Source: a virus. Taken from it: a stretch of 20,784 nucleotides of DNA. Position numbers and translations under genes: made by a program. This document shows, one piece after another, positions 1 through 19,804 of the stretch; position 1 is the stretch's first letter; each line of letters starts with the position of its first letter. The DNA is taken from IMG/VR virus record IMGVR_UViG_3300029266_002152, positions 1 to 20,784 of that record; one strand, given 5' to 3'. The notes beneath the pieces are model-generated. The model was not told the DNA's origin. It saw only the letters and a list, made by a program, of their open reading frames with translations, and did not search any database.

Positions 1-3000
1 AATGAAAATCATCAGTAATATAAAGTCTACTATAAAATCTCGTATGGTCATCAAAACTTGATGCATTATCAAAAGATGCTGAATAATATTCTGTATCACC
101 AATAGAATAAAAGTGATTTCGTGTATCTATATGTCCAACATTATAATCACCATTAGAACCAGTACCACCCGCATAATTTATAAAATGTGTATCACTACCA
201 CTTGAATCTGATGTTCCCCAACTATCGTGTATATTTACAAATGATTCATTAGCTATTGAAGCGTAATCAATTGAACCTGTTTTTGGAATTTCAACTGAAG
301 AGTCTGTTAGTGATGTTGAAAGTGTTATTGAACCTGATTTCATATTTATTTCTAATATAGAACCACTTGCTAATGGTGCAGTTGTTATAGAACCTGTTTT
401 TGGTAATTGTATATTAGAACCAGTTAGTGTAATACCTATATTAAAAGAGCCTGTTTTTGCAGAATCTAATATTGAATTTGTAAAACTCACATTCACATTA
501 GCACTACCTGTTGATGTATTTGGATTGGTTTCAAGTGACCCAGTCTTATTATGATATTTTTGTTTTTCCAATATTGTTGGTTTTACCTCTACACCAAAAT
601 TTGAATTTTTATTATTAAATGTTGAACGAGCTGGTACTATTAATTTTAACCCCTCAACTATTGAATGGTTAAACATATTTTCATGTGCTCTTATAAATTT
701 ATTTGTATCAACATTTATTGGATATGCTTCAAAAAATTCTTTTCTAAATGTATCAAATTCATTATATGATTGTGAATAATAATTTTGTGGATTTCCATAC
801 AATGTTTCAAAATTATAACCACTTAATGTATCTAAAATAAAATTATCAACAAATGTCTGCGGTGAACGATATAATTCTAATTTTGTAGATGTTTTAAACA
901 ATGGTTTACTATTTTCAAATTCAAATGGTTTAACTGCAGCTTGAAATGGATTTAAATTACCAACAACATTTCTTCTTGGATTTATTACAATATTATTATC
1001 ATTTTCTTTAGAAATATTGTCTTGTAAATTTAATTTAATAACTTCTACAAAATCAATTCCATATACACTTGAAGTATTAAATGTAGTTCCAGGTTTTGTA
1101 AAACTATAATCAGAGTAAGTTGTTATTGGAGCAGAATCAGCAATATTTAATGTTTGTGTTGAACTCGATACAGATGTACTTGAGTAATTTTCAGACAATT
1201 TAAAATGATAAATTAATTCATTTGTATGTGCATTAATTGAATTACCAACAGTAGAAAATTTATTTAATATATGTTGTCTAAATTTAGATGCACTTAATGT
1301 TGTACTCCAACCTTTAATATGAGAAATAGAACCAGTCATTATTTCCCCAACAACTAAATTAGATGAAGATGAATGATTTCTACTACCAGTTGAAATCCAA
1401 TTTTGATTTGCGTGATTATTAGAATCAATTGTTAATCCACCACTTACTGACATTGAAATATAATTCAATGTATTAATTGTTTTTCCTTTTTGTAATCCAG
1501 CATATAATCTATATTCTTGTGTTCCACTTCCACTAACACTACCACTTACCCTCTGTAACATAACATTCCAAAGTTGTCCATCTGTCATAGTAGAATAAGA
1601 TGTTGACATTGATAAAGAAGAATTAGAAGCTGTAATTGATGATGAAGCATGTGATGTATTATTTAATCTAAATTCAAATGATGAACTTATACCTTCATTA
1701 TCAGGAATTAATTTTAAATTCCATAATGTTTGTTTATCACTACCACCAGCAAATCCTAATACGGACATTGATGGTGCAGTTGTAGTTATTAAGTTATTAC
1801 CATCAATACTTGCTGTTAATTGAGTAAGAATTATTGAACCACTTGAGTTTGCAAATAATGTAAATCCACCACTTGTAATAAATGGAGAACCATTACTTGT
1901 AAGAAATTGTGTGGAATCAGATACATTTATTTTATTAAAGTGACCATTTGGATGTGATATGGAAGTTGATATTTCAGTTGCAATTTCGTCTCTATTTACA
2001 AGACCTTGTGTCTGAATACGAACTCTTCCCGAACCATCAGTTGTTCCAGTAGCTCCATCATTATCATCATCAAATATATAAGTTTTTTTTGTACCATCAC
2101 TTGATGTGATTCTTAATAGTGTTCCATCAAAATGTGCTGGATTACCTGATAGCATTTCTATAGAGCCTGTTGCTCGTAGAGCACCACTACCACTTGATTG
2201 TAATATTTGCTGTGTATTAGTTGTTTTTGAATGTTTGTAAATAAATTCAATAGTATTTAAATCTGCACTATCCATCCACCAATCAAGATTTAAAGTTCTT
2301 TTCTTAACTCCATTAAAAATGTATCTATATAATTTTTGTTTACTTGATACATAAGAAAAACTTCCCGTGTTGGTGACCAAAGATAAATCAATGCCAGTAC
2401 CTGTTGGCGGGTCATTGAAAAAAATTCTTGGGTTTGATTCTTCAGTTGAGCCACCAAATTCTTGAAATTTAACTACATCGGGTGGATAACCATATGTGTT
2501 TAATAATCCCCTAACTGAATTTTTTGTTCCTTTTGATTTATAAATGTATATTAAATTATTTAATGTTTTTCTCCAAGTGCTGTTTTTAATATCATCAATT
2601 GATGTTACTGAGGTTAAATAATCTCCTAATGTATTGGTTAAACTTCCTGAAAATGGATTAATTGCTTGCCACCCCATATTAGATAATAACATTGGTAATG
2701 TATTATTTGGTGGAGAATTTGTTTTCTTATATCCTCTTTTATGAAGTGTTCCCATTGAATCAACGTGGTTTCTAATTAAATCATATTGTTCACCTTGTAA
2801 ATTTAAAAAGCCTTTCATATCTTTATATTCAGAACTTTCTTTAATATAGAGTGGTAAATTGTTTTCAAATGAATGTATGTTATCAGTATCAAAAGCTGAT
2901 GCTGAGTCAACCATTCCACTATACCAATCAGTCCAATTAGCTGAACTTGTATGAAAAATATTGTCAAATGGTAATACATTTATAGGATTAATTAATGTTA

Positions 3001-4996
3001 CTTTTACATCTGTTATAAATGACGATGTACCAGCTGATGCTCCTGCCATATTAGCATATCTTATAAAAAATGGGTCACCGGCTGGCATTACTGAACCAAA
3101 AAATGGTATTCCATTTATTATTTCTCCCCCATCATTTTCTGAATGTGAAACAACTGTTGTTGGATATAAACCAGATGAATCTTTTATCTGATTTGAACCT
3201 GTTTTCATGCCACCACTTAATACGTCAACATGAGTTGAACCTTCATTAAAATTAGTTACTTTGCTTGTATCAAAATTAATATTAACATCATCATCATTAA
3301 CAACATTAGTTGGCACCCAATATGACATTGATGCTTCATAAATAAATCTTCTATACTCACTTCCAGTTATATTTGGATTTTTTATATTATTTCTATAAAG
3401 AGTATCTTTAGGTAATGGAAGAGTTAATCCATTAAAAGGATTGACAGAATTAGCGGGGAATTTTTGAACATTATCCCATCTTAAACCAGCACCACCAAAT
3501 GGAGAATCTGAGGTTTTTGAACTACTAATAAATTCATCACCTTTTAATAAGAATGATAAATAAATAGAACTACTATAATTAAACAATGGTATATTTTGAA
3601 CTAAATTTTTACCATTAAATATATCTACTCTAGTATTTGCATCTGTCATATTCTTAGTTGAATGTTTATATACAACATTAAAACCATCAAACCCATTTAA
3701 TTGTGTGCCTTCAGAATCTTCCAATCGAACTGGTGTTGGTGATACATAATTTTTACCCACACTAGGAGCAGACGCAGTTGATTCATTCTGTCCATCATAA
3801 TATAAAAAATATTCATAAGGTGTAAATGTTTTTATTTCATTATTTATTTTTTTAAATAAGTTTTTTCTGTTTTGGATTATATAATTAGAATCTCCTATCA
3901 TTGAACTTGAAATAGAAAGTGAAGATGAAATTTCAGAATAATGTCCTTGAATGGTTTTAATTTTTAAATTAAAATTTTCAAGTTTTGCTTTTGCAGAACC
4001 AAAGAATGTGTGGTTTTTAAAAAATCTAAAATCTGTATTTAAATTTGGATAATTATAAGAACTCTGTGATATTAAACCATCCAATGTAGTATTATTAATA
4101 GAACTACTTATTTCATCAAAGTTTTGATATTCTATATCATTACCATCAGGATTTATCCAATTTTCTGAATCATCTTTTAATAGTCCATCACCAAAATAAA
4201 CATCAGGTACATCAGAAAAATAAAATATGTCTTGAACTTGTGTTGTTAATATTTCTTTCTCAATAGTAACCATTGATAGAGTTGAAATAGTATTTGGTAA
4301 TGAATCATAAAGTTTTAAAATTAAAGATTGATTATCTATACCATTTGTAATTTTATCAAATTGATAATTCATTATTGGAATGTGGTCACCATTTCCAATG
4401 TTTAATATGTGCCCAAATTGATATTTGTCTTGTTCAATATCATTTCCATCTGTATTAAATGCTTTTGTTAAATCAGTAATAATAACTGAATCGGTTATAA
4501 TGTTTTCATCTATTATTTTAATTCTAACTTCTTTTCTTGAAGTTGAAATTTGTTTAATTATAAATGGTGTAATGGTTTCTTCTTGATGTAAAAAATCAAT
4601 TTGTATTTTGTAATTACCTTGAGGTAATTCAAATTTATTAAATATTTCATTTGGTTTTATGTAAACATCATCATTACCATTAGGATTTTCATTTCTATAT
4701 ATTTTAAAATCACCCTCACCTTGCCCAACTTGTTTTCCTCTTTCTTCTAAACTTGGATTTGTGGAATCTAAAAATGGGGCTATGCTTATAATATATGAAC
4801 CATCCAACAATGATGAGAAAAATATTGCTTTTCCATTTATACCTTTAGTATCATCAGGTAAATCAACAATGTTGTTAATTGCTTCTGTTGGATAAATGGT
4901 TAAACGAATATATGAGGTTCCAGCAATTTCACTGTCACCTTGAGTAACAATTAAGTCTGTATCTTGTTGATTAAATTCAAATTCAAAATCTGGCAT
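1..4996 (-). CDS. Giant baseplate/peripheral tail protein with P2 gpI/gp7-like segment and LamG domain (C-terminus beyond window)
   Basis: I translated this frame codon by codon: it starts MPDFEFEFNQQ at 4996 and has no stop down to base 2, so at least 1665 residues are encoded and the C-terminus lies off the left edge. Residues 1-170 form a beta-rich head (YIRLTIYPTEAINN near 29-42). Residues about 727-845 resemble the P2 gpI/T4 gp7 wedge family: MLLSNMGW (769-776), a Trp at 808, then YKSKGTKNSVRGLLNTYGYP (819-838), matching that family's LxxLAW...KGTxxAL...LG pattern. A beta module lies at about 953-1025 (LLRITSSDG, then an Asp-rich DDDNDG). A LamG/concanavalin-A-like domain spans about 1090-1245, with Trp 1092, 1143 and 1230. 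T-G-S repeats occupy 1514-1576. The start overlaps the upstream stop (TAATG) and has GGAG seven bases upstream. I infer a core wedge subunit enlarged with adhesin domains. The reading frame is certain; the role is moderately supported. Confidence 0.85.
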   Translation of the reverse strand, partial: MPDFEFEFNQQDTDLIVTQGDSEIAGTSYIRLTIYPTEAINNIVDLPDDTKGINGKAIFFSSLLDGSYIISIAPFLDSTNPSLEERGKQVGQGEGDFKIYRNENPNGNDDVYIKPNEIFNKFELPQGNYKIQIDFLHQEETITPFIIKQISTSRKEVRIKIIDENIITDSVIITDLTKAFNTDGNDIEQDKYQFGHILNIGNGDHIPIMNYQFDKITNGIDNQSLILKLYDSLPNTISTLSMVTIEKEILTTQVQDIFYFSDVPDVYFGDGLLKDDSENWINPDGNDIEYQNFDEISSSINNTTLDGLISQSSYNYPNLNTDFRFFKNHTFFGSAKAKLENFNLKIKTIQGHYSEISSSLSISSSMIGDSNYIIQNRKNLFKKINNEIKTFTPYEYFLYYDGQNESTASAPSVGKNYVSPTPVRLEDSEGTQLNGFDGFNVVYKHSTKNMTDANTRVDIFNGKNLVQNIPLFNYSSSIYLSFLLKGDEFISSSKTSDSPFGGAGLRWDNVQKFPANSVNPFNGLTLPLPKDTLYRNNIKNPNITGSEYRRFIYEASMSYWVPTNVVNDDDVNINFDTSKVTNFNEGSTHVDVLSGGMKTGSNQIKDSSGLYPTTVVSHSENDGGEIINGIPFFGSVMPAGDPFFIRYANMAGASAGTSSFITDVKVTLINPINVLPFDNIFHTSSANWTDWYSGMVDSASAFDTDNIHSFENNLPLYIKESSEYKDMKGFLNLQGEQYDLIRNHVDSMGTLHKRGYKKTNSPPNNTLPMLLSNMGWQAINPFSGSLTNTLGDYLTSVTSIDDIKNSTWRKTLNNLIYIYKSKGTKNSVRGLLNTYGYPPDVVKFQEFGGSTEESNPRIFFNDPPTGTGIDLSLVTNTGSFSYVSSKQKLYRYIFNGVKKRTLNLDWWMDSADLNTIEFIYKHSKTTNTQQILQSSGSGALRATGSIEMLSGNPAHFDGTLLRITSSDGTKKTYIFDDDNDGATGTTDGSGRVRIQTQGLVNRDEIATEISTSISHPNGHFNKINVSDSTQFLTSNGSPFITSGGFTLFANSSGSIILTQLTASIDGNNLITTTAPSMSVLGFAGGSDKQTLWNLKLIPDNEGISSSFEFRLNNTSHASSSITASNSSLSMSTSYSTMTDGQLWNVMLQRVSGSVSGSGTQEYRLYAGLQKGKTINTLNYISMSVSGGLTIDSNNHANQNWISTGSRNHSSSSNLVVGEIMTGSISHIKGWSTTLSASKFRQHILNKFSTVGNSINAHTNELIYHFKLSENYSSTSVSSSTQTLNIADSAPITTYSDYSFTKPGTTFNTSSVYGIDFVEVIKLNLQDNISKENDNNIVINPRRNVVGNLNPFQAAVKPFEFENSKPLFKTSTKLELYRSPQTFVDNFILDTLSGYNFETLYGNPQNYYSQSYNEFDTFRKEFFEAYPINVDTNKFIRAHENMFNHSIVEGLKLIVPARSTFNNKNSNFGVEVKPTILEKQKYHNKTGSLETNPNTSTGSANVNVSFTNSILDSAKTGSFNIGITLTGSNIQLPKTGSITTAPLASGSILEINMKSGSITLSTSLTDSSVEIPKTGSIDYASIANESFVNIHDSWGTSDSSGSDTHFINYAGGTGSNGDYNVGHIDTRNHFYSIGDTEYYSASFDNASSFDDHTRFYSRLYITDDFH
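269..457 (-). repeat. Tandem T-G-S repeats in the left-edge giant
   Basis: About five or six degenerate units of roughly 9-10 residues, each opening with TGS or SGS (TGSFNIGITL, TGSNIQLPK, TGSITTAPLA, SGSILEINMK, SGSI..., then PKTGSI), encoded at residues 1514-1576. At the DNA level the plus-strand string CCTGTTTTTG recurs at about 276, 393 and 450. The pattern suggests a repetitive beta-strand shaft or linker. Confidence 0.6.
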
Positions 4997-7900
4997 TATA
5001 ACGCTCCATCTTTAGTATCTTTTTTCGAAACTTTAATAAATGAATCTCTTCTCATAGTTTCACCTTTTCTTTGTTTTTTAACTTTATAATCACCAATTAT
5101 AAGTCCTTTATTTGAATTACCACTTGAATCATATATTGATTTATTTGATACTTCACCTGTATTTAATTCTAATTTACAAGTTTGTTTTAAATTCAAGTCC
5201 TGATTATCATTTATAAATATCTGTCCGACTGAACTTTCCTCTGGAAATTTATTTATATCACCATTCCAATAATCTTTATTAGTATGTGGGTAATATTGTT
5301 GAGTTGAAGAATTAAAATAATCAGAATTAAGATATTGGTCTAAATTAATGTCGGGAGCTGTTGTACTTACACAATTAAATGTTTTCCATATTTTTCCCTC
5401 CGAATCTATTAAGTTTTCATTAAAAGCTTGTGTCAATTCGTAATCTCCATCACCTAAATAACTACCATTACCACCAAAAACATTTGCACAGGCAAGAGTA
5501 GAAATACCCAATTCAGTAGTAAATTGTTCTAAATTTTCTGGAAATGTATAGTGGTCTTGTAATGGACCTACAGCAAAGTTAACTCCAGGAAAAGCTTCAT
5601 AATACATTGCTACAATACCAATAATTATTTGAGATGATGGTGGTAAAATGGTTTCAATTGGTGGTTTAATAGCCACACAATCAAAAGCATCGTTATAGAA
5701 GTTATTGTTTCCCCCAACGAAAATCCACGAACAATCAGTATTAGGAACAGCAACACATGTACCATCAAGACAATTTGAAAAATAAATTTCACAAGCCTTT
5801 TTAGGTGTAAGTTCTCCCTGTTCAAGTCCTAACATTGCTAAAGTATCAGAATTTCCAGAAGATAAGCCTCTCCAAGCTTGATAACCTGGTACGGGACTCG
5901 GAACACATTCTCCTGTTTCACCAGTCCAATACTCAGCCCTTGAATAATAATCTTGTTCATTAAATCGAATTACATCTACTTGACCAATAAGTTCTTCATC
6001 AGGTAAATTATTCCAATTTTCAACATCATTAATTATATTTGATACACTATTTGCTATATCTGGCCTTGCATAATCATTATCCCAAATATTAGCATCTTCA
6101 TTTGTTATTTGACCATTTCCACTTAAATCAAATTCTTCAAAAAATTCAGGCTCTGGTAAATTTTCCAAATAACTATTCTCTAAATAAATAGGATTACCTT
6201 GTATATTATTAATCACATCTATATTTAATAAAGTACTTATATTATAACTTTTATCAAAATACCTCACTTGTTCTAAATCCATTTGATTTATTGATTTACC
6301 TAATTCGTCATTTTCTAAATCTTGTATTAAAAACTTCTCATCAATAATATCCGTGTCACCGATATTCCCACCTGATAATGTGTCTCTAATACTTATTTTA
6401 TATTTTGAATTATCATCCACACCACCAATTACAGGAGTTGTATAAGGCCAAGGTATTGTGGTGTAATCACTTCCACCCAATAATGAAAAGTCTGGATATT
6501 CATTAAGAGGTATATCTAAATAAAATCTTGATTTAATAAGCTTCCATCTTCCAAGTTGTCCAGTTGGTTCATCATAACTAAATATAATGGCTTTAATTGT
6601 TTTTATTCCTGGTGTATTGTATGTATTGTAGAATGGTGGTCCATATTCAGGAACAACATCAGCTGTTGTGGATACATATGTAAACCTTACATATCCTAAT
6701 GTTTTATTTAATTGTGCATATAGACCGTCAAGGGAATTACCTGGTAATTCAGTTTTTTTATATTTTTGAATTGTGTTATCATAATAAACAGAACCTTCTT
6801 GAAATTGACCCCCACCTTTAGTTTGTATTACAATACTTCCAGGCTCAATAAAAGGATATTTATCTTCCATAATTTTTTTAAATTTATCTTCGCTGTAGTC
6901 TATAAAAGATAATGAAAAGACCTCTACTCTATCTTCCAATGCTTCATTAAATAATTCTTCCGTTTCTGTAGATGGTTCATTTATTAATAATTCATATGGA
7001 TTTAATTCACCAAACTCTTCAGTTAATATCATTTCCGGTGGAGGTGGATTATAACCAATATTACTTTTTGGTTGATATAAATTCTCATCTTGTAATTCCA
7101 ATATATCTAATGCATTAGTAGGACGGGTATTTTGCCAATCTTCTAAAGTTTTTATTTTATTATCTTTATCATCCCAATTAATTATAAAATAAAAATAATC
7201 CATAGGAATTTTAGATTCATCATTTGGATTTATAATACTTAAAGTGATACCAACTTTTGCAGGAGCTGAAGTTTTAAGAGATACTTGTATATCATCATAA
7301 TAACTTTGTAAATCCACTTCTGTTCGTATGTTATTAGATTTATCCGCAACACCTATAAGTGTTTTTGCAAAATAATCAGGAAATATGTTTGTTTTATCAT
7401 TAGTAGGACCAGCTGGGTCACCATTATCTAAAGTTCTATTAGGTGATATATATAGAAAATCTATTAAATTTTCACCTGATAAAGAATTTTTAAATTTAAA
7501 AGATGGGTCAACATCTTCAAAATATTTTTGATATGTTTTTTCGTCATCTGTAATTACACTAGAACCACTGGCCCACCCATTTACTCCAGCCTCTTGAGTA
7601 TTTATTGTTACTTGAAAATCATTTGCAAAAATTTTCCAACAAGGTGCTTCATCACCACTACCACCGCCATCTCCCTGAACGTCATTAACTTTAGGAACAT
7701 TCTCAAAGAAAGTAGTTTTTCCAGTCACTCCACCAGCACTATCTACATTAAATAAATCTAAATTATTTATCTTGTAAACTTGAAATCTTCTTTTTCTTAC
7801 ATCAGTACCCTGACCTGATGTTTCATCACCCCTAAGTCTAAAGCAAAAATAAATTGGATTGTATGTTGTTTCATCAATTATTATTGTACTTCCAACATTG

Positions 7901-8856
7901 CCTCTTAAAGTAAAAGCACCACCTGCATCAGGCCCAACATCATAACTACTCTGATTACCTGTAAAACTTTCAAGTACAATTGGGTTATTGTTTAATTCTT
8001 GAATTATAATTTCATTATCTAATCCAGGAATTTGACCAAAATCAGTTGGGTGTTGTAATTGTGGTCTTGTATGTAGTAAAATTTTATGTTTACTTTGAAG
8101 TTTCTGATAAATGCTGGTATAATTTGCAGTATCAAAATTATAGCCAGGATAGCTATTCTCCGAAAACATCCACACCTCTACCAAATTATTACCTGTTTTT
8201 TTATCTTGGACTTTTGATACATAACATTTATTAACTTGAATAAAACTATTATTTTCAAATTTTAAATTTCTTTCAATAATAGCATTATTTAAATCAGAAC
8301 CAACTATATTTGTATATAAATCTTTGCTTTGAAACTTGTCATTATTTTTTGGTAAACCAGTTGAATCTTTATAGTTACCTACAGTAGAATCACCAATAAA
8401 TTTTTTAAGTGAAATATAATCTATTGTTATATTTGAAATTTTTTCATCATTAAATATTTGAAGTCTATTATTTTCATTAACTGAAAAAATTAGTGTCTGT
8501 AATCCAATATCACCTTCACTAAAAATATTAGGGTTATTACCAGTATTTGGTGCTCGATATACACTAAGTTTACCACCATCATTGCTAACTACATTAACTG
8601 TTAATTGATATGTATTTCCCGGTTCAAGATGTTCTTTAAGTCTTAATGAACCAAATTCACCACTAGCTAACCAAATTGCCTCACCATCTAAAATTTGAAT
8701 ATCATTAGCAGAACCAGCAGTGCTTACTAACTCCCAATAATCAGTTGTAATCATACCTTCAGGATTTAATTCCTCACCTAACTCTGTGAAAAAATTATAT
8801 TGACTTAAATCATTATAACTTGGTTGGCCTTGAACTAATTTTTTTGTTTGAGCCAT
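4996..8856 (-). CDS. 1286-aa multidomain structural protein: CBM-like head, split PKD-like domain, dockerin-type calcium loop
   Basis: Large virion protein without signal peptide or membrane segments, partly paralogous to the 1712-aa protein encoded just upstream. Residues 22-152 look like a carbohydrate-binding beta-sandwich (GEELNPEG, LEPGNTYQLTV, ITIDYISLKKF). A PKD-like fold begins at about 530 and reaches INWDDKDNKI at 559-568. The expected closing strand, NTYNTPGIKTIKAIIFSYD, appears only at about 744-762, so some 160 residues seem inserted. Next come GGSDYTTIPWPYTTPVIGG (794-812), SKYKISIRDTL and a dockerin/EF-hand-like loop DLSGNGQITNED (910-921). Residues 984-1227 hold at least nine cysteines. 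The tail DSSGNSNKGLIIGDYK then a Lys/Arg-rich stretch ending KDGAL matches the upstream paralogue's tail. Start and stop are both TAATG overlaps. Function is inferred: peripheral baseplate or fibre-like adhesin. No enzymatic motif seen. Confidence 0.85.
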   Translation of the reverse strand: MAQTKKLVQGQPSYNDLSQYNFFTELGEELNPEGMITTDYWELVSTAGSANDIQILDGEAIWLASGEFGSLRLKEHLEPGNTYQLTVNVVSNDGGKLSVYRAPNTGNNPNIFSEGDIGLQTLIFSVNENNRLQIFNDEKISNITIDYISLKKFIGDSTVGNYKDSTGLPKNNDKFQSKDLYTNIVGSDLNNAIIERNLKFENNSFIQVNKCYVSKVQDKKTGNNLVEVWMFSENSYPGYNFDTANYTSIYQKLQSKHKILLHTRPQLQHPTDFGQIPGLDNEIIIQELNNNPIVLESFTGNQSSYDVGPDAGGAFTLRGNVGSTIIIDETTYNPIYFCFRLRGDETSGQGTDVRKRRFQVYKINNLDLFNVDSAGGVTGKTTFFENVPKVNDVQGDGGGSGDEAPCWKIFANDFQVTINTQEAGVNGWASGSSVITDDEKTYQKYFEDVDPSFKFKNSLSGENLIDFLYISPNRTLDNGDPAGPTNDKTNIFPDYFAKTLIGVADKSNNIRTEVDLQSYYDDIQVSLKTSAPAKVGITLSIINPNDESKIPMDYFYFIINWDDKDNKIKTLEDWQNTRPTNALDILELQDENLYQPKSNIGYNPPPPEMILTEEFGELNPYELLINEPSTETEELFNEALEDRVEVFSLSFIDYSEDKFKKIMEDKYPFIEPGSIVIQTKGGGQFQEGSVYYDNTIQKYKKTELPGNSLDGLYAQLNKTLGYVRFTYVSTTADVVPEYGPPFYNTYNTPGIKTIKAIIFSYDEPTGQLGRWKLIKSRFYLDIPLNEYPDFSLLGGSDYTTIPWPYTTPVIGGVDDNSKYKISIRDTLSGGNIGDTDIIDEKFLIQDLENDELGKSINQMDLEQVRYFDKSYNISTLLNIDVINNIQGNPIYLENSYLENLPEPEFFEEFDLSGNGQITNEDANIWDNDYARPDIANSVSNIINDVENWNNLPDEELIGQVDVIRFNEQDYYSRAEYWTGETGECVPSPVPGYQAWRGLSSGNSDTLAMLGLEQGELTPKKACEIYFSNCLDGTCVAVPNTDCSWIFVGGNNNFYNDAFDCVAIKPPIETILPPSSQIIIGIVAMYYEAFPGVNFAVGPLQDHYTFPENLEQFTTELGISTLACANVFGGNGSYLGDGDYELTQAFNENLIDSEGKIWKTFNCVSTTAPDINLDQYLNSDYFNSSTQQYYPHTNKDYWNGDINKFPEESSVGQIFINDNQDLNLKQTCKLELNTGEVSNKSIYDSSGNSNKGLIIGDYKVKKQRKGETMRRDSFIKVSKKDTKDGAL
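5004..5007 (-). promoter_or_regulatory. Ribosome-binding site of the left-edge giant, encoded by the Gly-Ala tail codons of the 1286-aa protein
   Basis: GGAG spans the Gly-Ala codons of the terminal DGAL, exactly seven bases before the ATG at 4996, which overlaps the upstream TAA. It supports MPDFEFEF as the true start. Confidence 0.75.
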
Positions 8857-11800
8857 TAAAATGCTCCATTATTAGTTGATGTTTTTATTAATTCTGTACT
8901 TTTTCTTTTTTTAGGTTTTAAAGTTTTATTATTAAATTTAGGTTTAAAATCTACAATTCCAAATCCTATATTTTGATTTCCACTGTTATCATTAAATACA
9001 TTACCTTCAATTTTTTCTGATGTGATATTTATTAATAAATTTTTATTGGATTCATTTTCATCAGTTATTGGTCCTTCCAATGGAAATGGTATTTTATTGT
9101 TTGGAAAGTTTCCCTCAATGAATTTACCATCTGAACCATATTTTGGTAATACAGGATAGTAATAATTATCTAACCATTCTTGTTCAGAATAAGTATCAAT
9201 CAAATCATCATCTAAACCTTCTCTATTATAAATAGAATAATCTTTAGGAATAATGTTTTTCCAATATCTTGGTGATTCTGGATTTCCTGAATCTATTAAT
9301 GAAGAAGCTTGTAAAGCTTCTTCTTGTGTTTCAAATTCAATACTTTCAGTATTTATTTTTTCTCGAACTGAAATATTATCAAAGGTAACATCTGTATTTT
9401 TACCTCCTCTTTTTATTACAAACATTGTTCTATCAGCTGTAAAAGTCATTGAATTTCCTGTAGAAGGTTCATCAGTTGGTAAAGTATTAGGTATTTCTAA
9501 ATCTCCACCTATTAATTCAAGATGCATATTTCTATCTGTATCATCTGTAGAAGAAATATCTATTACATCGTATGTGAATATATATTCTTTACCGGGTGTT
9601 AATATCTCTTGTCGTGCATATGCATTATTATCAGTTCCTGCATCATATGAAATTATTCTTACCCCTCCATTGGAGTATTCAACATTACCATGTTCTCCAT
9701 ACCCAATATTCCAACTACTCAACTCTCCAGTAGAAAAATCACCATTTGTTATAAGTTCTCCACCATACTCACTTGTAAAATCATCAATGTTTGGTACTTC
9801 AAACCCTAACATTTCCGACATTGATTTTGCTGTATTATAAAATTTTGGATTGCCAATATTCAAATCACCAATTGATTTTCCTAATTCTTCAGAAAATACT
9901 TTAAATCCTGTATAGTTTATTTCATGTGAAGTAAGAGTTTTAAACTCTTCGTAATTAGAATATTGTGATATTGTTGAACTACCGTCAAGCTCAACCAAAT
10001 AAGCACCACCAGCAAAAGGTATACTTGTTCCACTCCCAAAACCAGTACAACCCAATGATGGGTGACAAAATTCATGAGATACGCCTTGATTTATTGTTCC
10101 AAATCTATAAGTGAATCCCTCAACCATAGTTGTTAAATTATCTGAAACCCAATTATTATTTTCATTCATTTCGGCAATAGCCCCAATACCATAATATTCG
10201 TTACAGGCCGTATCATTAGGATGACAATTCATAACACCCCGTGTGAGTGGGGGGTCAAACATATTTTCTGGATGTAAAAAAGCACTTATATTACAATCAT
10301 AATCTTCACAAAGTGGGTTAACTAATAATTCTCCTGAATCAAGTTTAGCCAATGTTCTTGGTTTTGTGTATTCATTCAATAAATCTAATTGGGAATTAAA
10401 CGATGAATCCATTTTATTTAATGCTATCTCCGTTTTTAATCTATCACCAAGATTTGTAAAGTCAACCCGCGTGACATCATTACCACCTATAAAACCAAGT
10501 TGTCGTTTTATACTTTTATAATAAGAACTTTTGTATGAAATACCACCAATTATTGGTGATGCATTTTTATAAGGAATAAATGAAAAACCATCACTTCCAA
10601 AAAATGTAAAATCCTCATCCAAACCTTCACTTATATTTATTCTTAATCTAAATTTTTTATTTGTTATAATACCAATTTCTTCTCCCTTTTCATTTACTTT
10701 CATTCTTATCATTGTACCAACAACTTCAAAAACTCCACTACTTTCATATGTATGATATAAAGCTTTTTCCTCATCAATTTTTTCAGGATTAGATTTAAAT
10801 TCATTTGGACTACCATCACCCCAATTTATATTATAAATGTAAAACAAACCTTTTTTAAAGTCTTGGTATACAGGTGTTCGTTTTACATCAAATACATTAT
10901 CAACTGGATATTGTGGATAAAAATAAAATTGTGCTTCCAATGGTGCTGTAGTATCATTGTATTTTTCTAATTGAGATAAAATAGTTGGGTCATAATATTT
11001 TGTTAAATTACCTTTACCATAATTACCAACAGACAATTTTTTTCTAACATCAACATCTGGAATGAAGTCTTCATCTTCATAAACTTCAAAATCATCTAAC
11101 CAAACCCTCCCATAAAATTCATTTGCAGATTGAACAATTAAATACAATGGTCGTATGATTCCATCACCATAACGAAAAATATCAGCCATAGTAAAATTAT
11201 ATGAAAATGTTTCCCAAGTATCTAATTCTGTATTTTGAAATCTACCCATACTTCCAAAGTTAGAATACTTTCTATTAAGTGTTCCAGTATCATTTATATC
11301 ATCACTATATCTCTGTGAATTAAAATCACCATGTGGCCAATAACAAGTTTCTGCACTCCAGGGAAGATGTCTTCCTTCGGCACGAACCCAAGATTCTGAT
11401 GTATAATTTGGATTCTCGTCTTTTCTATCCTCTGTTCTAATTGGGTTAGTTGTTGAAGTATCACCATCAACGATTGCAATTTCAACTTGTGGTGGATTAT
11501 TTGAATTATACAATTTACTCCAAGTTTTCATTTTAAACTTAACTTTCATTGTAGTGAATGGATTTATTCTTTCATCTGCCCATGGATTATAAATCTTAAT
11601 AACTTGATTTAATCCTCTGTATTGATTATCAGTTACACCACCATTTTGAACATTCATATCAAAATCATTTTTCCAATCGAATGTGGTATCGATTTTATTA
11701 TCATCTCCAAAATTATTTATATCAAATTGTCCGTCTCTAAAATTAGTAGCTAAAAATTCTAAACACCTACCATTTGAAAAACACGAAACTTCATCAGAAT

Positions 11801-13994
11801 ACTCCTCAGAAAAATCTTTGTCAATAATCCATTTTGCAAAATTAGGAAACCAAATATCTTCAATAACATCATCTGCTTCATCAGTATCATTCATACCCGT
11901 AGCAGTACATTTACGAGGAGTGAGGTAAGACTTATGAGATGAAACTGCAGGGTAAGCTGTGCCTTCAAGGCCGTTATCAAACTCATCACCTGTACTATCA
12001 ATTTGATTTTGTCTTAAAAAATAATTCATAGAGTCAAATACAGTTTCAGTACTGCCTAAAATTTCACTTTTAGAGGAATTGATTAAATTATCTTGTAATC
12101 TTAAAAGTGATTGATTTTGTCGTTCTGTAGGGTCAATTCTATAATCAAAGAAATAAGCATGATACCCAGTATAACCAATTGCACCTTGAGAATCAAAACC
12201 AACCCAATCTTGTTCTTGTGCTGCAGGATTTTGTTGAAATGAAGTTATAAGTTCAGAGCCATTAGGAAGATTTTCTGGATATGTTCCATACAATGTAGTT
12301 AGAGCACGACCATCACCACCTCTATATAAATCATCATTTCTTCTCCTTTGAAATTCCCCTATACCATCATAAGTACAATATGACCAATTATTTGAAGGTA
12401 TAAAAAATCTTTCTCTTTGGTCCTCATCATCGCCTGTAGAATATGGATTCCTCCAAATACTTTTTATAAACTTTCCTGAAGGGTTTGGAACTAAATTTAT
12501 TTTTCTAACTTGAGTGAATTTATCATCTCTAAACACACTAGGCATATTAGAAGTCAAAATATTATCATCATCGAATGTAAACATACCCAATCCAATTCTC
12601 CCATCTTCGTTTGAATCTAAAAAGCCTTGTCTTGTGTTTTGAAAAGTATCAATATTAATATTCAAACCAGTTAATGAATTATAAGCACTAAATAAAGTTT
12701 GTTCAATTACAACATTAGGTACTCCAAAGTCTAATGATATTTCTTCATCTGTTGATTCGGTATCAACTAATATATTATTTTCAGGTAGGTCTTCATTAAC
12801 ACTATCTTCAACTTCTTCATCCACTACAACAGGTGGTAGCCCAAAATCTATATCTTCATAAATTGTTTCATGTCCAACAATTTTAAAATTAATTTGTACA
12901 TCAACACTACCAGTTATTGGTTCTTCACTTATAGGGTCAAAAGGAGCACTTGGCCATAATGGGTCATAATTATTAGCAGGAGGAACATCTATTTCAAAAG
13001 AATATAAAGCAGTTTCAAAATTATAATAAAAACTACTTTCTTGACTGTTGCTATAGTTGTTTGGTATTATTCCAGTTTCTAAATAGGTATTACAATAGTC
13101 TGGAAGTGTGTATAACTGATTCATCCAGCTTATTGTGGACTCTAAATCGTTGGATGCTCTCCAGTTAGGGTCATAATGCCATAAATAAAAGGATACTATA
13201 AACATAGTTATGTCAGGTCGTCCAACTCCATCAATATCCTCTGAGGAGTTAAATATTCCTGGAACACCCCAAAACTTTTGTAAGTTGTTAATATAATCAC
13301 TTCTAGCTTGATTTCCAGCAGCGTCATCTCCAAAGGAATCTAAATCGTATTCTCCATTATTAAAAACATCAAATTCATTCCAATTTTGAGGAAATGGTAA
13401 CTGTTCTAAAGTTGCAGTCAGAAGGGCCCCGTCAACATAATTATATTCAAATTTAAATGTATCAAGTACACTAGTTGGCATATCTATAAAGAAATAATCT
13501 GCATTAACAGGTGCAATTTCACTTTTATAAAATGAATGTGGTTGTACTGCAAGTTTTGGTGAGTTATTATTATTAAAATCTTGATACTGGGTTATAATTG
13601 CATTCATAAAATTAAAAGTATTATGACTATTTTGACTCCATTCAGAATCACTTCCAGGATTGAATCCTAATTGTGTAAATTTTATTTTTGCTACACCAGG
13701 GTTTACTTCATTTTCATTAGGATGACCGGGTGGAAAAATACTCCCATATGGTTCTATGTTTAATTTATTTGAATATAATACTGCAGATTGATATGTTGAG
13801 TCAAATGTATCAATAGATGGGTCGTTAAGTTCATCATCTGCTCCTCCAGCTAAATCATCACCATCAGTAGTATGTTCGTGATGATGATGGTTATCAGCAT
13901 TATGTTCCCCATCATCAGGTGTTTCCGGGTCTGGAGGAGTTATTTTAAAACCTCCATCACCAACCGCTAATGGATTAAGTGTAGTTTCAGCCAT
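8856..13994 (-). CDS. 1712-aa multidomain structural protein: His-rich N-terminus, calcium loops, two CBM-like sandwiches, PKD domain
   Basis: Largest complete gene here. Residues 1-60 are acidic and Pro-rich with a histidine cluster (HNADNHHHHEH, 31-41). Dockerin/EF-hand-like loops occur at 253-263 (DIDGVGRPDIT) and 460-471 (DSNEDGRIGLGM). The motifs IDFGLPPVVV (382-391) and LDFGVPNVVI (421-430) flank an acidic linker. A jelly-roll-like domain lies at about 773-975 (ending VWLDDFEVYEDEDF), followed by a PKD domain at about 1018-1115 with the diagnostic INWGDGSP (1056-1063) and HTYESSGVFEVVGT. Then FFGSDGFSFIPYKNASPIIGG, a Cys-rich stretch (1229-1316), and a second CBM-like domain at 1411-1546 (GELITNGDFS, ILTPGKEYIFTYDV, VTFDNISVRE). 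The tail NDNSGNQNIGFGIVDFK...NGAF resembles that of the downstream paralogue. The start has AGGAA eight bases upstream, overlapping the previous stop. PKD and CBM folds suggest binding to host or particle-surface glycans. No catalytic site identified. Confidence 0.85.
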   Translation of the reverse strand: MAETTLNPLAVGDGGFKITPPDPETPDDGEHNADNHHHHEHTTDGDDLAGGADDELNDPSIDTFDSTYQSAVLYSNKLNIEPYGSIFPPGHPNENEVNPGVAKIKFTQLGFNPGSDSEWSQNSHNTFNFMNAIITQYQDFNNNNSPKLAVQPHSFYKSEIAPVNADYFFIDMPTSVLDTFKFEYNYVDGALLTATLEQLPFPQNWNEFDVFNNGEYDLDSFGDDAAGNQARSDYINNLQKFWGVPGIFNSSEDIDGVGRPDITMFIVSFYLWHYDPNWRASNDLESTISWMNQLYTLPDYCNTYLETGIIPNNYSNSQESSFYYNFETALYSFEIDVPPANNYDPLWPSAPFDPISEEPITGSVDVQINFKIVGHETIYEDIDFGLPPVVVDEEVEDSVNEDLPENNILVDTESTDEEISLDFGVPNVVIEQTLFSAYNSLTGLNINIDTFQNTRQGFLDSNEDGRIGLGMFTFDDDNILTSNMPSVFRDDKFTQVRKINLVPNPSGKFIKSIWRNPYSTGDDEDQRERFFIPSNNWSYCTYDGIGEFQRRRNDDLYRGGDGRALTTLYGTYPENLPNGSELITSFQQNPAAQEQDWVGFDSQGAIGYTGYHAYFFDYRIDPTERQNQSLLRLQDNLINSSKSEILGSTETVFDSMNYFLRQNQIDSTGDEFDNGLEGTAYPAVSSHKSYLTPRKCTATGMNDTDEADDVIEDIWFPNFAKWIIDKDFSEEYSDEVSCFSNGRCLEFLATNFRDGQFDINNFGDDNKIDTTFDWKNDFDMNVQNGGVTDNQYRGLNQVIKIYNPWADERINPFTTMKVKFKMKTWSKLYNSNNPPQVEIAIVDGDTSTTNPIRTEDRKDENPNYTSESWVRAEGRHLPWSAETCYWPHGDFNSQRYSDDINDTGTLNRKYSNFGSMGRFQNTELDTWETFSYNFTMADIFRYGDGIIRPLYLIVQSANEFYGRVWLDDFEVYEDEDFIPDVDVRKKLSVGNYGKGNLTKYYDPTILSQLEKYNDTTAPLEAQFYFYPQYPVDNVFDVKRTPVYQDFKKGLFYIYNINWGDGSPNEFKSNPEKIDEEKALYHTYESSGVFEVVGTMIRMKVNEKGEEIGIITNKKFRLRINISEGLDEDFTFFGSDGFSFIPYKNASPIIGGISYKSSYYKSIKRQLGFIGGNDVTRVDFTNLGDRLKTEIALNKMDSSFNSQLDLLNEYTKPRTLAKLDSGELLVNPLCEDYDCNISAFLHPENMFDPPLTRGVMNCHPNDTACNEYYGIGAIAEMNENNNWVSDNLTTMVEGFTYRFGTINQGVSHEFCHPSLGCTGFGSGTSIPFAGGAYLVELDGSSTISQYSNYEEFKTLTSHEINYTGFKVFSEELGKSIGDLNIGNPKFYNTAKSMSEMLGFEVPNIDDFTSEYGGELITNGDFSTGELSSWNIGYGEHGNVEYSNGGVRIISYDAGTDNNAYARQEILTPGKEYIFTYDVIDISSTDDTDRNMHLELIGGDLEIPNTLPTDEPSTGNSMTFTADRTMFVIKRGGKNTDVTFDNISVREKINTESIEFETQEEALQASSLIDSGNPESPRYWKNIIPKDYSIYNREGLDDDLIDTYSEQEWLDNYYYPVLPKYGSDGKFIEGNFPNNKIPFPLEGPITDENESNKNLLINITSEKIEGNVFNDNSGNQNIGFGIVDFKPKFNNKTLKPKKRKSTELIKTSTNNGAF
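8864..8867 (-). promoter_or_regulatory. Ribosome-binding site of the 1286-aa protein, encoded by the Gly-Ala tail codons of the 1712-aa protein
   Basis: GGAG spans the Gly-Ala codons of the terminal NGAF and is seven bases before the ATG at 8856. The ATG is embedded in TAATG with the upstream stop. The same arrangement recurs at 5004-5007. Confidence 0.75.
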
Positions 13995-15880: not shown

Positions 15881-17002
15881 CTATTTCCTTTTTACTATAA
15901 ATTCAAAATTATCATCAAATATTTGTTCTTGTTCATCATTATACTTTAATTTCAATTGTATTTTATAAACTCTATCTGGATAAAATCCATCTAAATATTG
16001 AATAAAATAATTTGAATCACTGTCACAACTTAACTTAGTAAAACTTACACTAGAACTATCTTCAAAGGGAACAATAAACTCATCAGTAGCCACATCTTTA
16101 ATTGCATATGAACCACTACCTTCAGGTATAAAAGAATCAGTTACGGTTTGAACTGATGTAGAAAATGTTTTTTGTATGTATCTTTTTCTAGCACCAATTC
16201 TAAACTTAACTCTTTCACCAACTTTATAACTTTCTCTCAACCCCTTCATATATAAAAAGTTATCACTTAATCCACTCATTGTTAATTCATTCATTGAACC
16301 AGTGTTTGAACCTGTACAAGGTAAATGGTCATCCCAACGAACTTCTAATCTTGGTGAGAAAATCGTATGTGTGTTTCTCGAAAAGAATTTTAAATGTCCA
16401 AATGTTTCACTATCTGTTTCTTGACTACCACTAAAACTAATTAACATTCCATAATTTTCTTCTTGTCCTTTTAACCACATATTTACCATCTTAGTAACAT
16501 CAACCTCAACATCAGGTGATTGATTTGTAAATGATTGTTCTGACTGACTTACATTTAAAACTGTTACACCATTATTAGCCCAAGCTGTAGCAGTACCACC
16601 AAGTGGATTACTACGATTCTCCCAACTACAGCCATTTGTATTTTTTGGATTGTCACCAAACTTACCAGTACCCTCAGTCCATGATTGTGATATTGGTCGA
16701 ATGGCTAATTTATATTCTTCAGTCATTTCCGCATTACCCTCAGCCTCAAACAACCTTAAAAAATAAGATGCATTTGATGTTATTGTCCCACTTGCAACAG
16801 ATTTTGATAATTCAGTAAACTCCGTTCCACTAAAATTAACCAATGCTCGTGTTTGGTGGTCAAATGAATTATTAAAAAATTCTTTTCTGACTTCAATTAT
16901 TGGGTCTCTTCCAAAGTTTTGGTCTTTAAAAGATTCACCAGTTGTGGTATTTGAACCACTTGAAATCCAAGTGTCTTGTGATGGAAAAATAAAATGATGC
17001 AT
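15881..17002 (-). CDS. 373-aa DNRLRE-like domain structural protein following gp6
   Basis: Residues about 5-226 carry the signature order of a DNRLRE-type extracellular beta domain: an early TWISSGS (11-17), NFGRDPIIEVR (29-39), RALVNFSG, then ISQSWTEGTG (104-113), GCSWENR (124-130), DVEVDVTKMVNMWLKG (164-179), GMLISFSG, FFSRN (206-210) and SPRLEVRWDD (216-225). The C-terminal half (about 240-373) is a separate beta-rich domain with YKVGERVKFRIGARKRYIQK and YPDRVYKIQLKLKYND, ending in FEFIVKRK. No signal peptide is present, as expected for a virion protein assembled in the cytoplasm. ATG overlaps the gp6 stop as TAATG, with GGGAGA in the final gp6 codons as ribosome-binding site. Its place directly after gp6 suggests a wedge-attached peripheral component. 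That role is inference; the domain call is fairly firm. Confidence 0.85.
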   Translation of the reverse strand: MHHFIFPSQDTWISSGSNTTTGESFKDQNFGRDPIIEVRKEFFNNSFDHQTRALVNFSGTEFTELSKSVASGTITSNASYFLRLFEAEGNAEMTEEYKLAIRPISQSWTEGTGKFGDNPKNTNGCSWENRSNPLGGTATAWANNGVTVLNVSQSEQSFTNQSPDVEVDVTKMVNMWLKGQEENYGMLISFSGSQETDSETFGHLKFFSRNTHTIFSPRLEVRWDDHLPCTGSNTGSMNELTMSGLSDNFLYMKGLRESYKVGERVKFRIGARKRYIQKTFSTSVQTVTDSFIPEGSGSYAIKDVATDEFIVPFEDSSSVSFTKLSCDSDSNYFIQYLDGFYPDRVYKIQLKLKYNDEQEQIFDDNFEFIVKRK

Positions 17003-19299
17003 TATCTAACTCTCCCTTGTATGTTTTGATTTGGATTCTTTAATTCAAAAACTGCTGGTGTTGATGTGTTTGGTGGTACAATTATTGTACCATCATTTGA
17101 AAGTGCACTTTTAAAATCATATCTATAATTGTAATTTAAAAACTCAGAAGCTGTATTAGGTATTGTGAAACCACCATCAATTACACCATCACCATCTAAG
17201 TCCACACCAGCACCATTTTGACTAAATGAATAAGTAAAAGTTGGTGGAGTTAACAACTCACCATCATCAAAAAAATAATCTTTTTCTTGTGTTATTGTTA
17301 CATGACCAATTGAACGAACACCCTCAATTCCCATTAATTCAAACTCTAATTTACTTTTAAATATTGGTTGATTAAATTGCATTTTTTCTATTCTAAAATA
17401 ATCTTTTATTTTTTGTATACATTTTAATTTTACTTGTTGTTTGTTTGCATATTTCTCAGCTATTATATCAAAGAACACACCAAAGTTTACAATGTATCCA
17501 TCATTGATTGTTAATGTATCAGTCATTAGTTTAAAATTTTCAAGATATTTTTTTATATTAGATGTTAATACATTTGGTAAATTATCATCTCTTCCTAGTG
17601 TGTTAGCGTGAGCATTTCCAACTAATTGTTTTAAATTATTATATCCTAAGACATAAATATTTATTGACGATAAGTTAAATGAATTTATGTCTGTTTGTTG
17701 TATAGCTGGAACTTGAGTTGTTAATAGGTCATCTATAGTTTGAGATAAAGTAATAAGCTTTTGCAAAAATTGAGCATTAATAGTATTATAATCATTTTCA
17801 GTAATAGCATCTGATATCGCTACCAGTAATGTTTGCATACCTGGAGTGTTACCTAATGGTATATTACCACCATAAACCACAGAGTTTAAAGTTGAACTTA
17901 ATTCACCCACACTTGTATTATATTGTTCTTGTCCAGAAGGTGTATCACCTTCAGCACTTCTTGCAACATACGCTTTTGCAATATTTCCAAACTTAGCAGG
18001 TATGTTCATTACTCTAGCTTCATAATCTTCTTTAGTTACACATCTGTTTTGTGTTGAGAAAAAAGCTTTAGCTTTTTCTTTTATTTCTAAAGTGTCTTCT
18101 TCATCTTTTCCACCAACAGCTGGATTACTATTTGTAACATTTGAAAGTGTAGCCCCACCATTGAGAGCTGGTGTAATAATACTCGGTAAAGTTGTTAAAT
18201 CTCCAACTGGAATATTTGAACTAATTCCACCACCTACTCTATAAGTTATAGTTAAAGTTGTATTGTTTGGTGTTTCACCTAATGTTGAATAATCATTACC
18301 AAGTAATGGGTCAATAGAATTATTTAAATCACTCGTTTGTCCTGGAATAATAATTCCAATTTGTTCAGTATCAATATAATTGCTATCAACAACATTACTA
18401 TCTTTTAATACACCATTTCCAAAAATTAAAGACGTTGTATTGTCTTGATTTGTTTCACGAGTAAATCTTTTCGGTGATATTATATAGCTTAATGAGTAAG
18501 GTACTGCAGATGTGGTTAATAAACTATTAACATCAACATATGCTGAGTCTCTATTAATATCATCCGTATAATGAGTTGAAATTATAACTTTGTCTTGTGC
18601 AAGAAAATCAACTTCATACCAATTATTATTATTTGAATCCACACAAGAAATTATATCAATAACATTCGTATCTGGAATTGTAAGTGTTTTAAATTTTTCA
18701 GGTATTCCAACTTGGAATGAAATTGTTTTTTCAGTTGCACTAACAGCTTTAACAGTTCTTGATAAAGTATAAGTGGAAGCTAAACCAGACGCAGCTGTTG
18801 TACCAATTGTATTAGTATCAATGGATTCTGTAATTCTAAAATCAATTGGTTCTAATGTTGTAAAAATAGTACTGGAATTTGTTGATGATACAATTTCAAG
18901 ACCAGGATTAAATACACTAGCTTTAGTATAATCTACCTTTGAAATATCACCACTGTTAACATCAACATTCGAAGTAAAGGTTAAATTAACGTATGATGGA
19001 ACAATTGGTTTTACTTTATAACCAAACATTGTTGCCATTGTAATAATGTTTCTTCTTTCCTCAGCTAATGGTAACAACATTTCTTTATATTGTTGGTCAA
19101 TATAAAATGATAATACATCACCTACATAAGCATTCATTTCTAATAACATCATACCTGGTGATGTCTCGTTAAAATCACGATATGTGTTTGGAAAATAAGA
19201 TTTTGCATAATTCATTAATGATTGTTTTAATGCACTAAAATCTTTATTTAAATAATTTACATTTGATTCTTTAAAATTTTCGTTACCATATGTTGGCAT
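17002..19299 (-). CDS. 6: Baseplate wedge subunit gp6-like (baseplate J family)
   Basis: Core wedge protein. In T4, gp6 dimers hold neighbouring wedges together to form the inner baseplate ring, and the family includes P2 gpJ and the type VI secretion protein TssF. The N-terminus is diagnostic: NVNYLNKDFSALKQSLMNYA (13-32), then SYFPNTYRDFNETSPGMMLLE (34-54), YVGDVLSFYIDQQYKEM (58-74) and a KVKPIVPSYVNLTFT strand. The mid-region has VGGKDEEDTLEIKEKAKAFF (395-414) and TQNRCVTKEDYEARV (416-430), typical of baseplate J proteins. At 765 aa it is longer than T4 gp6 (660 aa). Extra sequence lies at about 449-537, and there is a canonical calcium loop, DLDGDGVIDGG, at 700-710. The start has GGAG seven bases upstream. 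It sits directly after gp25, an association usual for marine T4-like phages. Confidence 0.96.
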   Translation of the reverse strand: MPTYGNENFKESNVNYLNKDFSALKQSLMNYAKSYFPNTYRDFNETSPGMMLLEMNAYVGDVLSFYIDQQYKEMLLPLAEERRNIITMATMFGYKVKPIVPSYVNLTFTSNVDVNSGDISKVDYTKASVFNPGLEIVSSTNSSTIFTTLEPIDFRITESIDTNTIGTTAASGLASTYTLSRTVKAVSATEKTISFQVGIPEKFKTLTIPDTNVIDIISCVDSNNNNWYEVDFLAQDKVIISTHYTDDINRDSAYVDVNSLLTTSAVPYSLSYIISPKRFTRETNQDNTTSLIFGNGVLKDSNVVDSNYIDTEQIGIIIPGQTSDLNNSIDPLLGNDYSTLGETPNNTTLTITYRVGGGISSNIPVGDLTTLPSIITPALNGGATLSNVTNSNPAVGGKDEEDTLEIKEKAKAFFSTQNRCVTKEDYEARVMNIPAKFGNIAKAYVARSAEGDTPSGQEQYNTSVGELSSTLNSVVYGGNIPLGNTPGMQTLLVAISDAITENDYNTINAQFLQKLITLSQTIDDLLTTQVPAIQQTDINSFNLSSINIYVLGYNNLKQLVGNAHANTLGRDDNLPNVLTSNIKKYLENFKLMTDTLTINDGYIVNFGVFFDIIAEKYANKQQVKLKCIQKIKDYFRIEKMQFNQPIFKSKLEFELMGIEGVRSIGHVTITQEKDYFFDDGELLTPPTFTYSFSQNGAGVDLDGDGVIDGGFTIPNTASEFLNYNYRYDFKSALSNDGTIIVPPNTSTPAVFELKNPNQNIQGRVR
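17011..17016 (-). promoter_or_regulatory. Ribosome-binding site of the DNRLRE protein, inside gp6
   Basis: GGGAGA is encoded by the Gly-Arg codons near the gp6 C-terminus (QGRVR), eight bases before the ATG at 17002, which overlaps the gp6 TAA. It decides the MHHF start rather than any later Met. Confidence 0.7.
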
Positions 19300-19312: not shown

Positions 19313-19804
19313 TTAATATCCACCACCACTATTTCCAGAAGATTCCGTATTTGATACATCACTACCAAAATTTAAACTTACAGAATCTAAAGTGTTTGGG
19401 TCTTGTTTAATGTTAAATAATATTTTAACTATAACTTCATTAACTCCAATATCCGTACTACTATTTTTACTTAAAACTTTAATATCTCTCACCTCAACAA
19501 AAGGTAACCAAAATTCCATTTTGTCTAATATAGCATCCTGTACATCAATTAAATTTCCATCTGTAATGTTTTCAAATAATATTTTTCTTAAATTTAAACC
19601 TAAATTTGGTTGAAAAAATCTTTCACCTTGATTGGTACTTAGTAAGTTTCTTATATTATTTTTTACAGCTTCTATCGTTGTAGATGTTGAACTAAAAAAT
19701 CCATCTATATCATCACCCCTACGAATAGGTAAATCAATACCAATTTTTACATTAGTATCATTGTCTTGAATAAAAGGTTTTCTAGATGTATCTTTAATAG
19801 CCAT
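19313..19804 (-). CDS. 25: Baseplate wedge subunit gp25-like (GPW/gp25 family)
   Basis: Small wedge protein of the gp25/GPW family (TssE in type VI secretion). In T4 it joins the gp6-gp7 core and starts sheath polymerisation. The family core is visible: GIDLPIRRGDDIDGFFSS (22-39), then TIEAVKNNIRNLLSTNQGER (43-62), FFQPNLGLNLRKILFENI (63-80) and LPFVEVRDIKVL (100-111). The GER followed by QPNLG corresponds to the conserved 'TxxGERxxxPxFG' stretch. At 163 aa it exceeds T4 gp25 (132 aa), mainly through a Ser/Gly-rich tail ending SSGNSGGGY. The start forms TAATG with the upstream stop and uses GGAGA nine bases upstream, inside the previous gene's last codons. Despite older annotations of this family as lysozyme, no catalytic residues are evident here. 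Confidence 0.95.
   Translation of the reverse strand: MAIKDTSRKPFIQDNDTNVKIGIDLPIRRGDDIDGFFSSTSTTIEAVKNNIRNLLSTNQGERFFQPNLGLNLRKILFENITDGNLIDVQDAILDKMEFWLPFVEVRDIKVLSKNSSTDIGVNEVIVKILFNIKQDPNTLDSVSLNFGSDVSNTESSGNSGGGY

Follow-up and report, generated by a model that had tools for sequence, protein, structure and literature searches.

The viral contig IMGVR_UViG_3300029266_002152, analysed here in its entirety (the window, 20,784 bases), carries at its left end a giant open reading frame (ORF), which raises the question of whether such a protein is a tail adhesin or a structural part of the baseplate. An earlier note had proposed that a segment of the giant resembles the P2 gpI and T4 gp7 wedge proteins, and that wedge-core and receptor-facing functions are fused in a single chain. 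Our analysis favours the giant being the gp7/gpI-type baseplate wedge subunit of this phage, in which an extended N-terminal region, a LamG-like lectin module and a C-terminal block of helices are joined to the wedge core, a reading to which we give a probability of roughly 0.85. The ORF and the elements of its putative core are the following.

Positions 2 to 4996, minus strand: giant ORF of 1665 aa, truncated at the edge of the contig, with about 106–112 C-terminal aa missing by comparison with 11 relatives.
Positions 2447 to 2929, minus strand: probable gpI/gp7-type wedge core (giant residues 690–850), assigned from an all-helical prediction, conservation and profile comparisons.
Positions 2774 to 2857, minus strand: first helical block (giant residues 714–741, LPLYIKESSEYKDMKGFLNLQGEQYDLI), common to cyanophage gp7 (hhalign).
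Positions 2450 to 2599, minus strand: KGT block (giant residues 800–849, IDDIKNSTWRKTLNNLIYIYKSKGTKNSVRGLLNTYGYPPDVVKFQEFGG), ungapped to gpI (hhalign), with a sub-threshold match to Tail_P2_I.

The contig stops before the ORF does, which leaves the 3' end open, and full-length relatives measure between 1613 and 2056 aa, their length being very variable. The segment that had been singled out is real: window positions 2462–2818 (minus strand) encode giant residues 727–845 with the translation as quoted, and within it MLLSNMGW (residues 769–776, window 2669–2692) and YKSKGTKNSVRGLLNTYGYP (residues 819–838, window 2483–2542) each occur once in the giant. Searches of PHROGs and Pfam with the whole giant gave no useful match, and phmmer of the giant against PDB sequences did not find a baseplate chain. 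The best-conserved stretch of the protein is residues 701–850, with a mean identity to the window copy of 0.68–0.77 per 50-residue bin among 14 relatives, and it is residues ~685–862 that tblastn finds again in each of three distant phages (E 1e-9 to 7e-11): Microcystis phage Mel-JY01, Flavobacterium phage immuto and LR756508, a huge phage. Since the core is conserved both among relatives and in distant phages, the segment belongs to a genuine conserved core and is not a chance sequence. By scanning with the core alignment we recovered at least 564 relatives in IMG/VR, 80 of which were retained; family members are typically ~1,100–1,700 aa long, the core often starts near residue 400, and the invariant columns of the 82-sequence core alignment are D, N, P, G, Y, K, G and T. 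The significant Foldseek matches of the core in BFVD were large phage proteins of 756–1440 aa, all uncharacterised or unnamed. We also observed inserts of roughly 200–350 residues immediately N-terminal of the core in several relatives (L005, L007–L012), while the window giant has none at this site (residues 654–657, window about 3030–3037).

The relationship with gpI was assessed by profile comparison. As P2 gpI retrieved nothing but near-identical copies when scanned against viruses, a diverse set was drawn from the phage collection and the gpI profile was built from 11 sequences, namely P2 and ten diverse phages. The core aligned to this profile by hhalign with a probability of 76% and an E-value of 2.2e-5. 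The alignment runs for 50 columns without gaps, keeps the KGT register and ends in E[YF]GG; its score was 39.4, when compared to a maximum of 25.3 among 199 column shuffles and to 11.5 for the reversed profile. With the KGT half-profile the match reached a probability of 91% (E 9.7e-7), and no shuffle scored that high. The gpI profile was also used, without tuning to these sequences, to rank the 767 ORFs of the window plus 19 related loci, and ranks 1–12 were taken by the window giant and 11 close relatives. Tail_P2_I (PF09684) is the Pfam model that members of the core family match most often, in 35 of 82 cases with a best E-value of 0.0041; the same model also misses T4 gp7.

A second comparison used a cyanophage-type gp7 profile made from seven cyanophages and Sinorhizobium phage phiN3. 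The core matched it in two blocks lying in the same order, a P-x-[FY]-I...F helix (E 3.4e-4) and the KGT block (E 1.4e-5), and for each block none of 100 shuffles reached the observed score. Cyanophage gp7 in turn matches T4 gp7 with a probability of 95% (E 2.4e-8).

The genomic context was considered next to these matches, with two neighbouring genes as the landmarks.

Positions 17002 to 19299, minus strand: gp6/gpJ-type baseplate wedge protein, 765 aa, the expected partner of the giant (phrog_219, E 2e-21; phrog_10646).
Positions 19313 to 19804, minus strand: gp25-type baseplate wedge protein, 163 aa (PF04965, E 2e-10; phrog_261, E 1e-19).

The gp25- and gp6-type genes have the giant downstream of them in the three neighbourhoods that were read, those of the window, of Mel-JY01 (where gp25 and gp6 were assigned from size and order) and of immuto. 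The core-family gene is present in exactly one copy in each of eight relatives' records (116–484 kb). In these records no separate gpI-like gene was found by Tail_P2_I and gpI-alignment searches, which are blind to T4-type gp7, and the sub-threshold Tail_P2_I matches fall solely within the giant itself; in relatives, PHROGs links none of the genes next downstream of the giant to a wedge protein. The contention that there is no other gp7 candidate agrees with the eight records, with the reservation that these searches miss T4's own gp7 and that a T4-type gp7 could have gone unrecognised elsewhere in the relatives.

Several observations weigh against the wedge assignment. The window core scores 14.1–14.3 bits against Tail_P2_I, under the curated cut-off of 20.6, and hmmsearch with the core found no baseplate chain among PDB sequences. 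When the whole core is compared directly with T4 gp7, the match borders on noise (E 0.014, probability 3%), too weak for a single-step match to serve as stand-alone evidence, although the KGT half is clearer (E 0.0014, same register). The likeness to T4 gp7 put forward in the earlier note is therefore sustained by way of cyanophage gp7 as a bridge and not by the direct match, which is weak by sequence. Four ORFs separate gp6 from the giant, whereas gpI directly follows gpJ and gp7 directly follows gp6. The AlphaFold2 model of the core is all-helical and of low confidence (predicted local distance difference test score 69, predicted template modelling score 0.40), and plain Foldseek of this model against PDB gave nothing significant. 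In favour of the assignment, among the 43 candidate chains aligned by VIA, two gpI-type wedge chains came up at ranks 1 and 3, 8kea_c (wedge protein gp32 of the cyanophage A-1(L); Z 4.3, 116 residues, root-mean-square deviation 7.8 Å) and 9gb2_M (triplex 2 of phiCD508; Z 3.6, 106 residues, 7.4 Å); such Z-scores, with deviations above 7 Å, are in the chance range for helical models. Independently, the gpI sequence profile finds 8kea_c and 9gb2_M in PDB, ranked behind pyocin R2 Tri2. The low Z-scores prove nothing alone, and the weight lies in the convergence of sequence profile and predicted fold on the same two chains. No TssG chain stands among the PDB matches listed for the core by hmmsearch, Foldseek and VIA, an absence that carries no weight. 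For the N-terminus and core of the relative L071, the AlphaFold2 model (predicted template modelling score 0.40) is uninformative as regards the core; its VIA list is dominated by a small beta barrel with Z up to 6, and a gpI-type chain is absent from the 50 matches listed.

Could the giant instead be a tail fibre or adhesin attached outside the baseplate, its KGT segment being a conserved helical attachment region that merely resembles gpI? Its large size, the LamG-like module, the Ser/Gly/Thr-rich stretches and the very variable length of close relatives would all suit such a protein, as would the several ORFs lying between gp6 and the giant. We nevertheless consider this improbable, for the core is the most conserved part and present once per genome, both the gpI and the cyanophage gp7 KGT profiles rank it above other ORFs, and the searches of the relatives' records, within the limit given above, turned up no other gpI/gp7 candidate.

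Two further explanations concern the core itself. TssF and TssG, like gp6 and gp7, have similar C-terminal domains (PMC6300606), and this shared domain fold would allow the core to sit on the gp6/gpJ/TssF side of the wedge rather than the gp7/gpI/TssG side; it is very unlikely to do so, given that a separate gp6-type gene is present (phrog_219) and that the matches of the core are to Tail_P2_I/gpI and gp7, within the KGT region. That a short KGT helix pair is similar by chance is harder still to credit: the E-values, taken singly, are modest and the alignment spans only ~50 residues, but none of the 199 and none of the 100 shuffles reached the observed scores, the top 12 places among the ORFs went to the giant and its relatives, a second block occurs in the correct order, and sequence and fold converge independently on the same PDB chains. 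Altogether, the gpI profile match, the ORF ranking, the two ordered cyanophage gp7 blocks and the convergence on gpI-type chains uphold the proposed gpI/gp7 relationship.

Outside the core, three other parts of the wedge candidate were delineated.

Positions 3035 to 4996, minus strand: N-terminal region (giant residues 1–654), with no Pfam family match.
Positions 1118 to 2269, minus strand: LamG/ConA-lectin-like module (giant residues about 910–1293), broken by a variable insert at residues about 940–1083.
Positions 512 to 895, minus strand: conserved helical C-terminal block (giant residues 1368–1495), present in 88 of 94 family members.

Laminin_G_3 matches were obtained in 9 of 24 relatives (best E 9.7e-5; the first member scores 19.3 bits, cut-off 27.6), and the best PDB profile match of the family module is neurexin-1-alpha. 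The window giant's own module has no Pfam match; against the profile of its relatives' module it matches at residues about 1109–1293 (E 1.8e-12), with a weak second piece at 910–1040. These comparisons support the LamG domain claimed previously, at the family level and in the window giant, as a module predicted from sequence. The C-terminal block was tried as the gpI C-terminal 'trifurcation' half split off by the LamG insert, and this was rejected, the profile score of 9.3 being below the null median. In L071, the equivalent N-terminal region is predicted as a beta domain followed by helices, a fold that applies to L071 only. This beta domain (L071:8819-10612, model residues about 45–216) weakly resembles T5 Dit pb9, the top Foldseek match having a non-significant E-value of 0.038; several pb9-type chains stand in the top 18 Foldseek rows, with E-values of 0.04–0.15 that are likewise not significant.

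The remaining neighbours were also inspected. A conserved protein starting MGYLDN.S.TVDAVLTKKGREIL, with no PHROG match, is encoded closely downstream of the giant in close relatives and in most distant ones (L002–L015). The 373-aa protein after gp6 (window 15881–17002, minus strand) has a CBM96 match above the curated cut-off (E 2.9e-8), and several relatives likewise have an ORF of similar size after gp6. The 1286-aa and 1712-aa proteins (window 4996–8856 and 8856–13994, minus strand) have a common 122-residue region (28% identity, E 6e-6) and may be alike in their C-terminal tail, which relatives retain (R..SFIKVPKK..GAL / K..NGAF) while total length is very variable.

Known systems share some of the features of the giant. 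The cyanophage gp7 'baseplate wedge initiator' of P-SSM2, P-HM2 and S-SSM7 is likewise a giant encoded after gp25 and gp6, with a helical block preceding the KGT block and a long added C-terminal region; P-SSM2 gp7, annotated at 75005–90592, is about 5,195 aa long and P-HM2 gp7 about 4,454 aa, both directly after gp6. In these proteins the core is at the extreme N terminus, whereas the window giant has ~690 residues before it, four intervening ORFs after gp6 and a LamG-like module following the core. The existence of such giants makes the idea less novel than the earlier note had assumed. P2 gpI/Tail_P2_I proteins, including pyocin R2 Tri2, A-1(L) gp32 and phiCD508 gp66, share with the giant the KGT region, 50 residues that align without gaps up to a final E[YF]GG, and have companion gp6/gpJ and gp25/gpW genes, but they are only about 180–260 aa long and lack the N-terminal region, the LamG-like module and the C-terminal block; relative to P2 gpI, the giant also has an extra stretch between its LLxxxGW and KGT parts. 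T4 gp7 (1032 residues) places its core after a large N-terminal part, at about residues 650–775, and has a peripheral wedge role; direct sequence similarity to it is barely detectable, and its gene directly follows gp6. We know of no lectin module in T4 gp7. Alg12, Afp12 and Pvc12 of extracellular contractile injection systems, and Vp4 gp119, are also wedge proteins with large peripheral parts, the window phage differing in having a separate gp6. Carbohydrate-binding modules are borne by Vp4 gp119 (PMC11406892), and in AlgoCIS the gp7-like part of Alg12 is outside, binds tail fibres and was termed a hotspot of re-engineering (PMC8894135). T4 gp7 is a monomer of three domains, located at the periphery and contacting gp9 and gp10 (PMC3004832), while TssF/TssG and gp6/gp7 form 2:1 heterotrimers, TssG connecting the wedge to the receptor-binding-protein-like TssK (PMC6300606).

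By analogy with TssF/TssG, Alg12 and T4 gp7, the core would anchor on gp6 and the added parts would face outward. The core (residues ~690–850) may pack, at the wedge, against two molecules of the gp6-type protein encoded nearby, as in (gp6)2-gp7 and (TssF)2-TssG, and could help to hold the gp25/sheath platform. The N-terminal region, the LamG-like module and the C-terminal block would then be additions on this anchor, placed outside the wedge, which might bind the host surface or a receptor, or carry or dock host-facing parts encoded by the neighbouring large genes. Of the fusion proposed at the outset, the combination of a wedge core and a LamG-like module in one chain is retained, the receptor-facing role being an inference only. 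One could speculate, and we think it rather doubtful, that in this phage family the host-sensing lectin is part of the wedge subunit, its LamG-like domain being flanked by two conserved anchoring blocks of the same chain; glycan binding could then be linked straight to wedge rearrangement, with no separate adaptors of the kind of T4 gp8–gp11 in between.

Giant gp7 proteins after gp6 were already known from cyanophages, as were carbohydrate-binding modules on a wedge protein from Vp4. What is new is that a separate, abundant and uncharacterised family is assigned to the gp7/gpI kind, with a layout of long N-terminal region, core and then LamG-like module. The assignment, whose main use lies in giving a name to an abundant orphan family, would provide a function for a large group of giant phage proteins from mostly environmental contigs, unannotated in PHROGs and uncharacterised in BFVD, with the isolated phages Mel-JY01 and immuto among its members. 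It would also widen the gp7/gpI wedge family past the cyanophages and tailocins. Should the lectin module lie exposed at the surface, this would be a further case of the gp7 position serving to attach host-binding parts.
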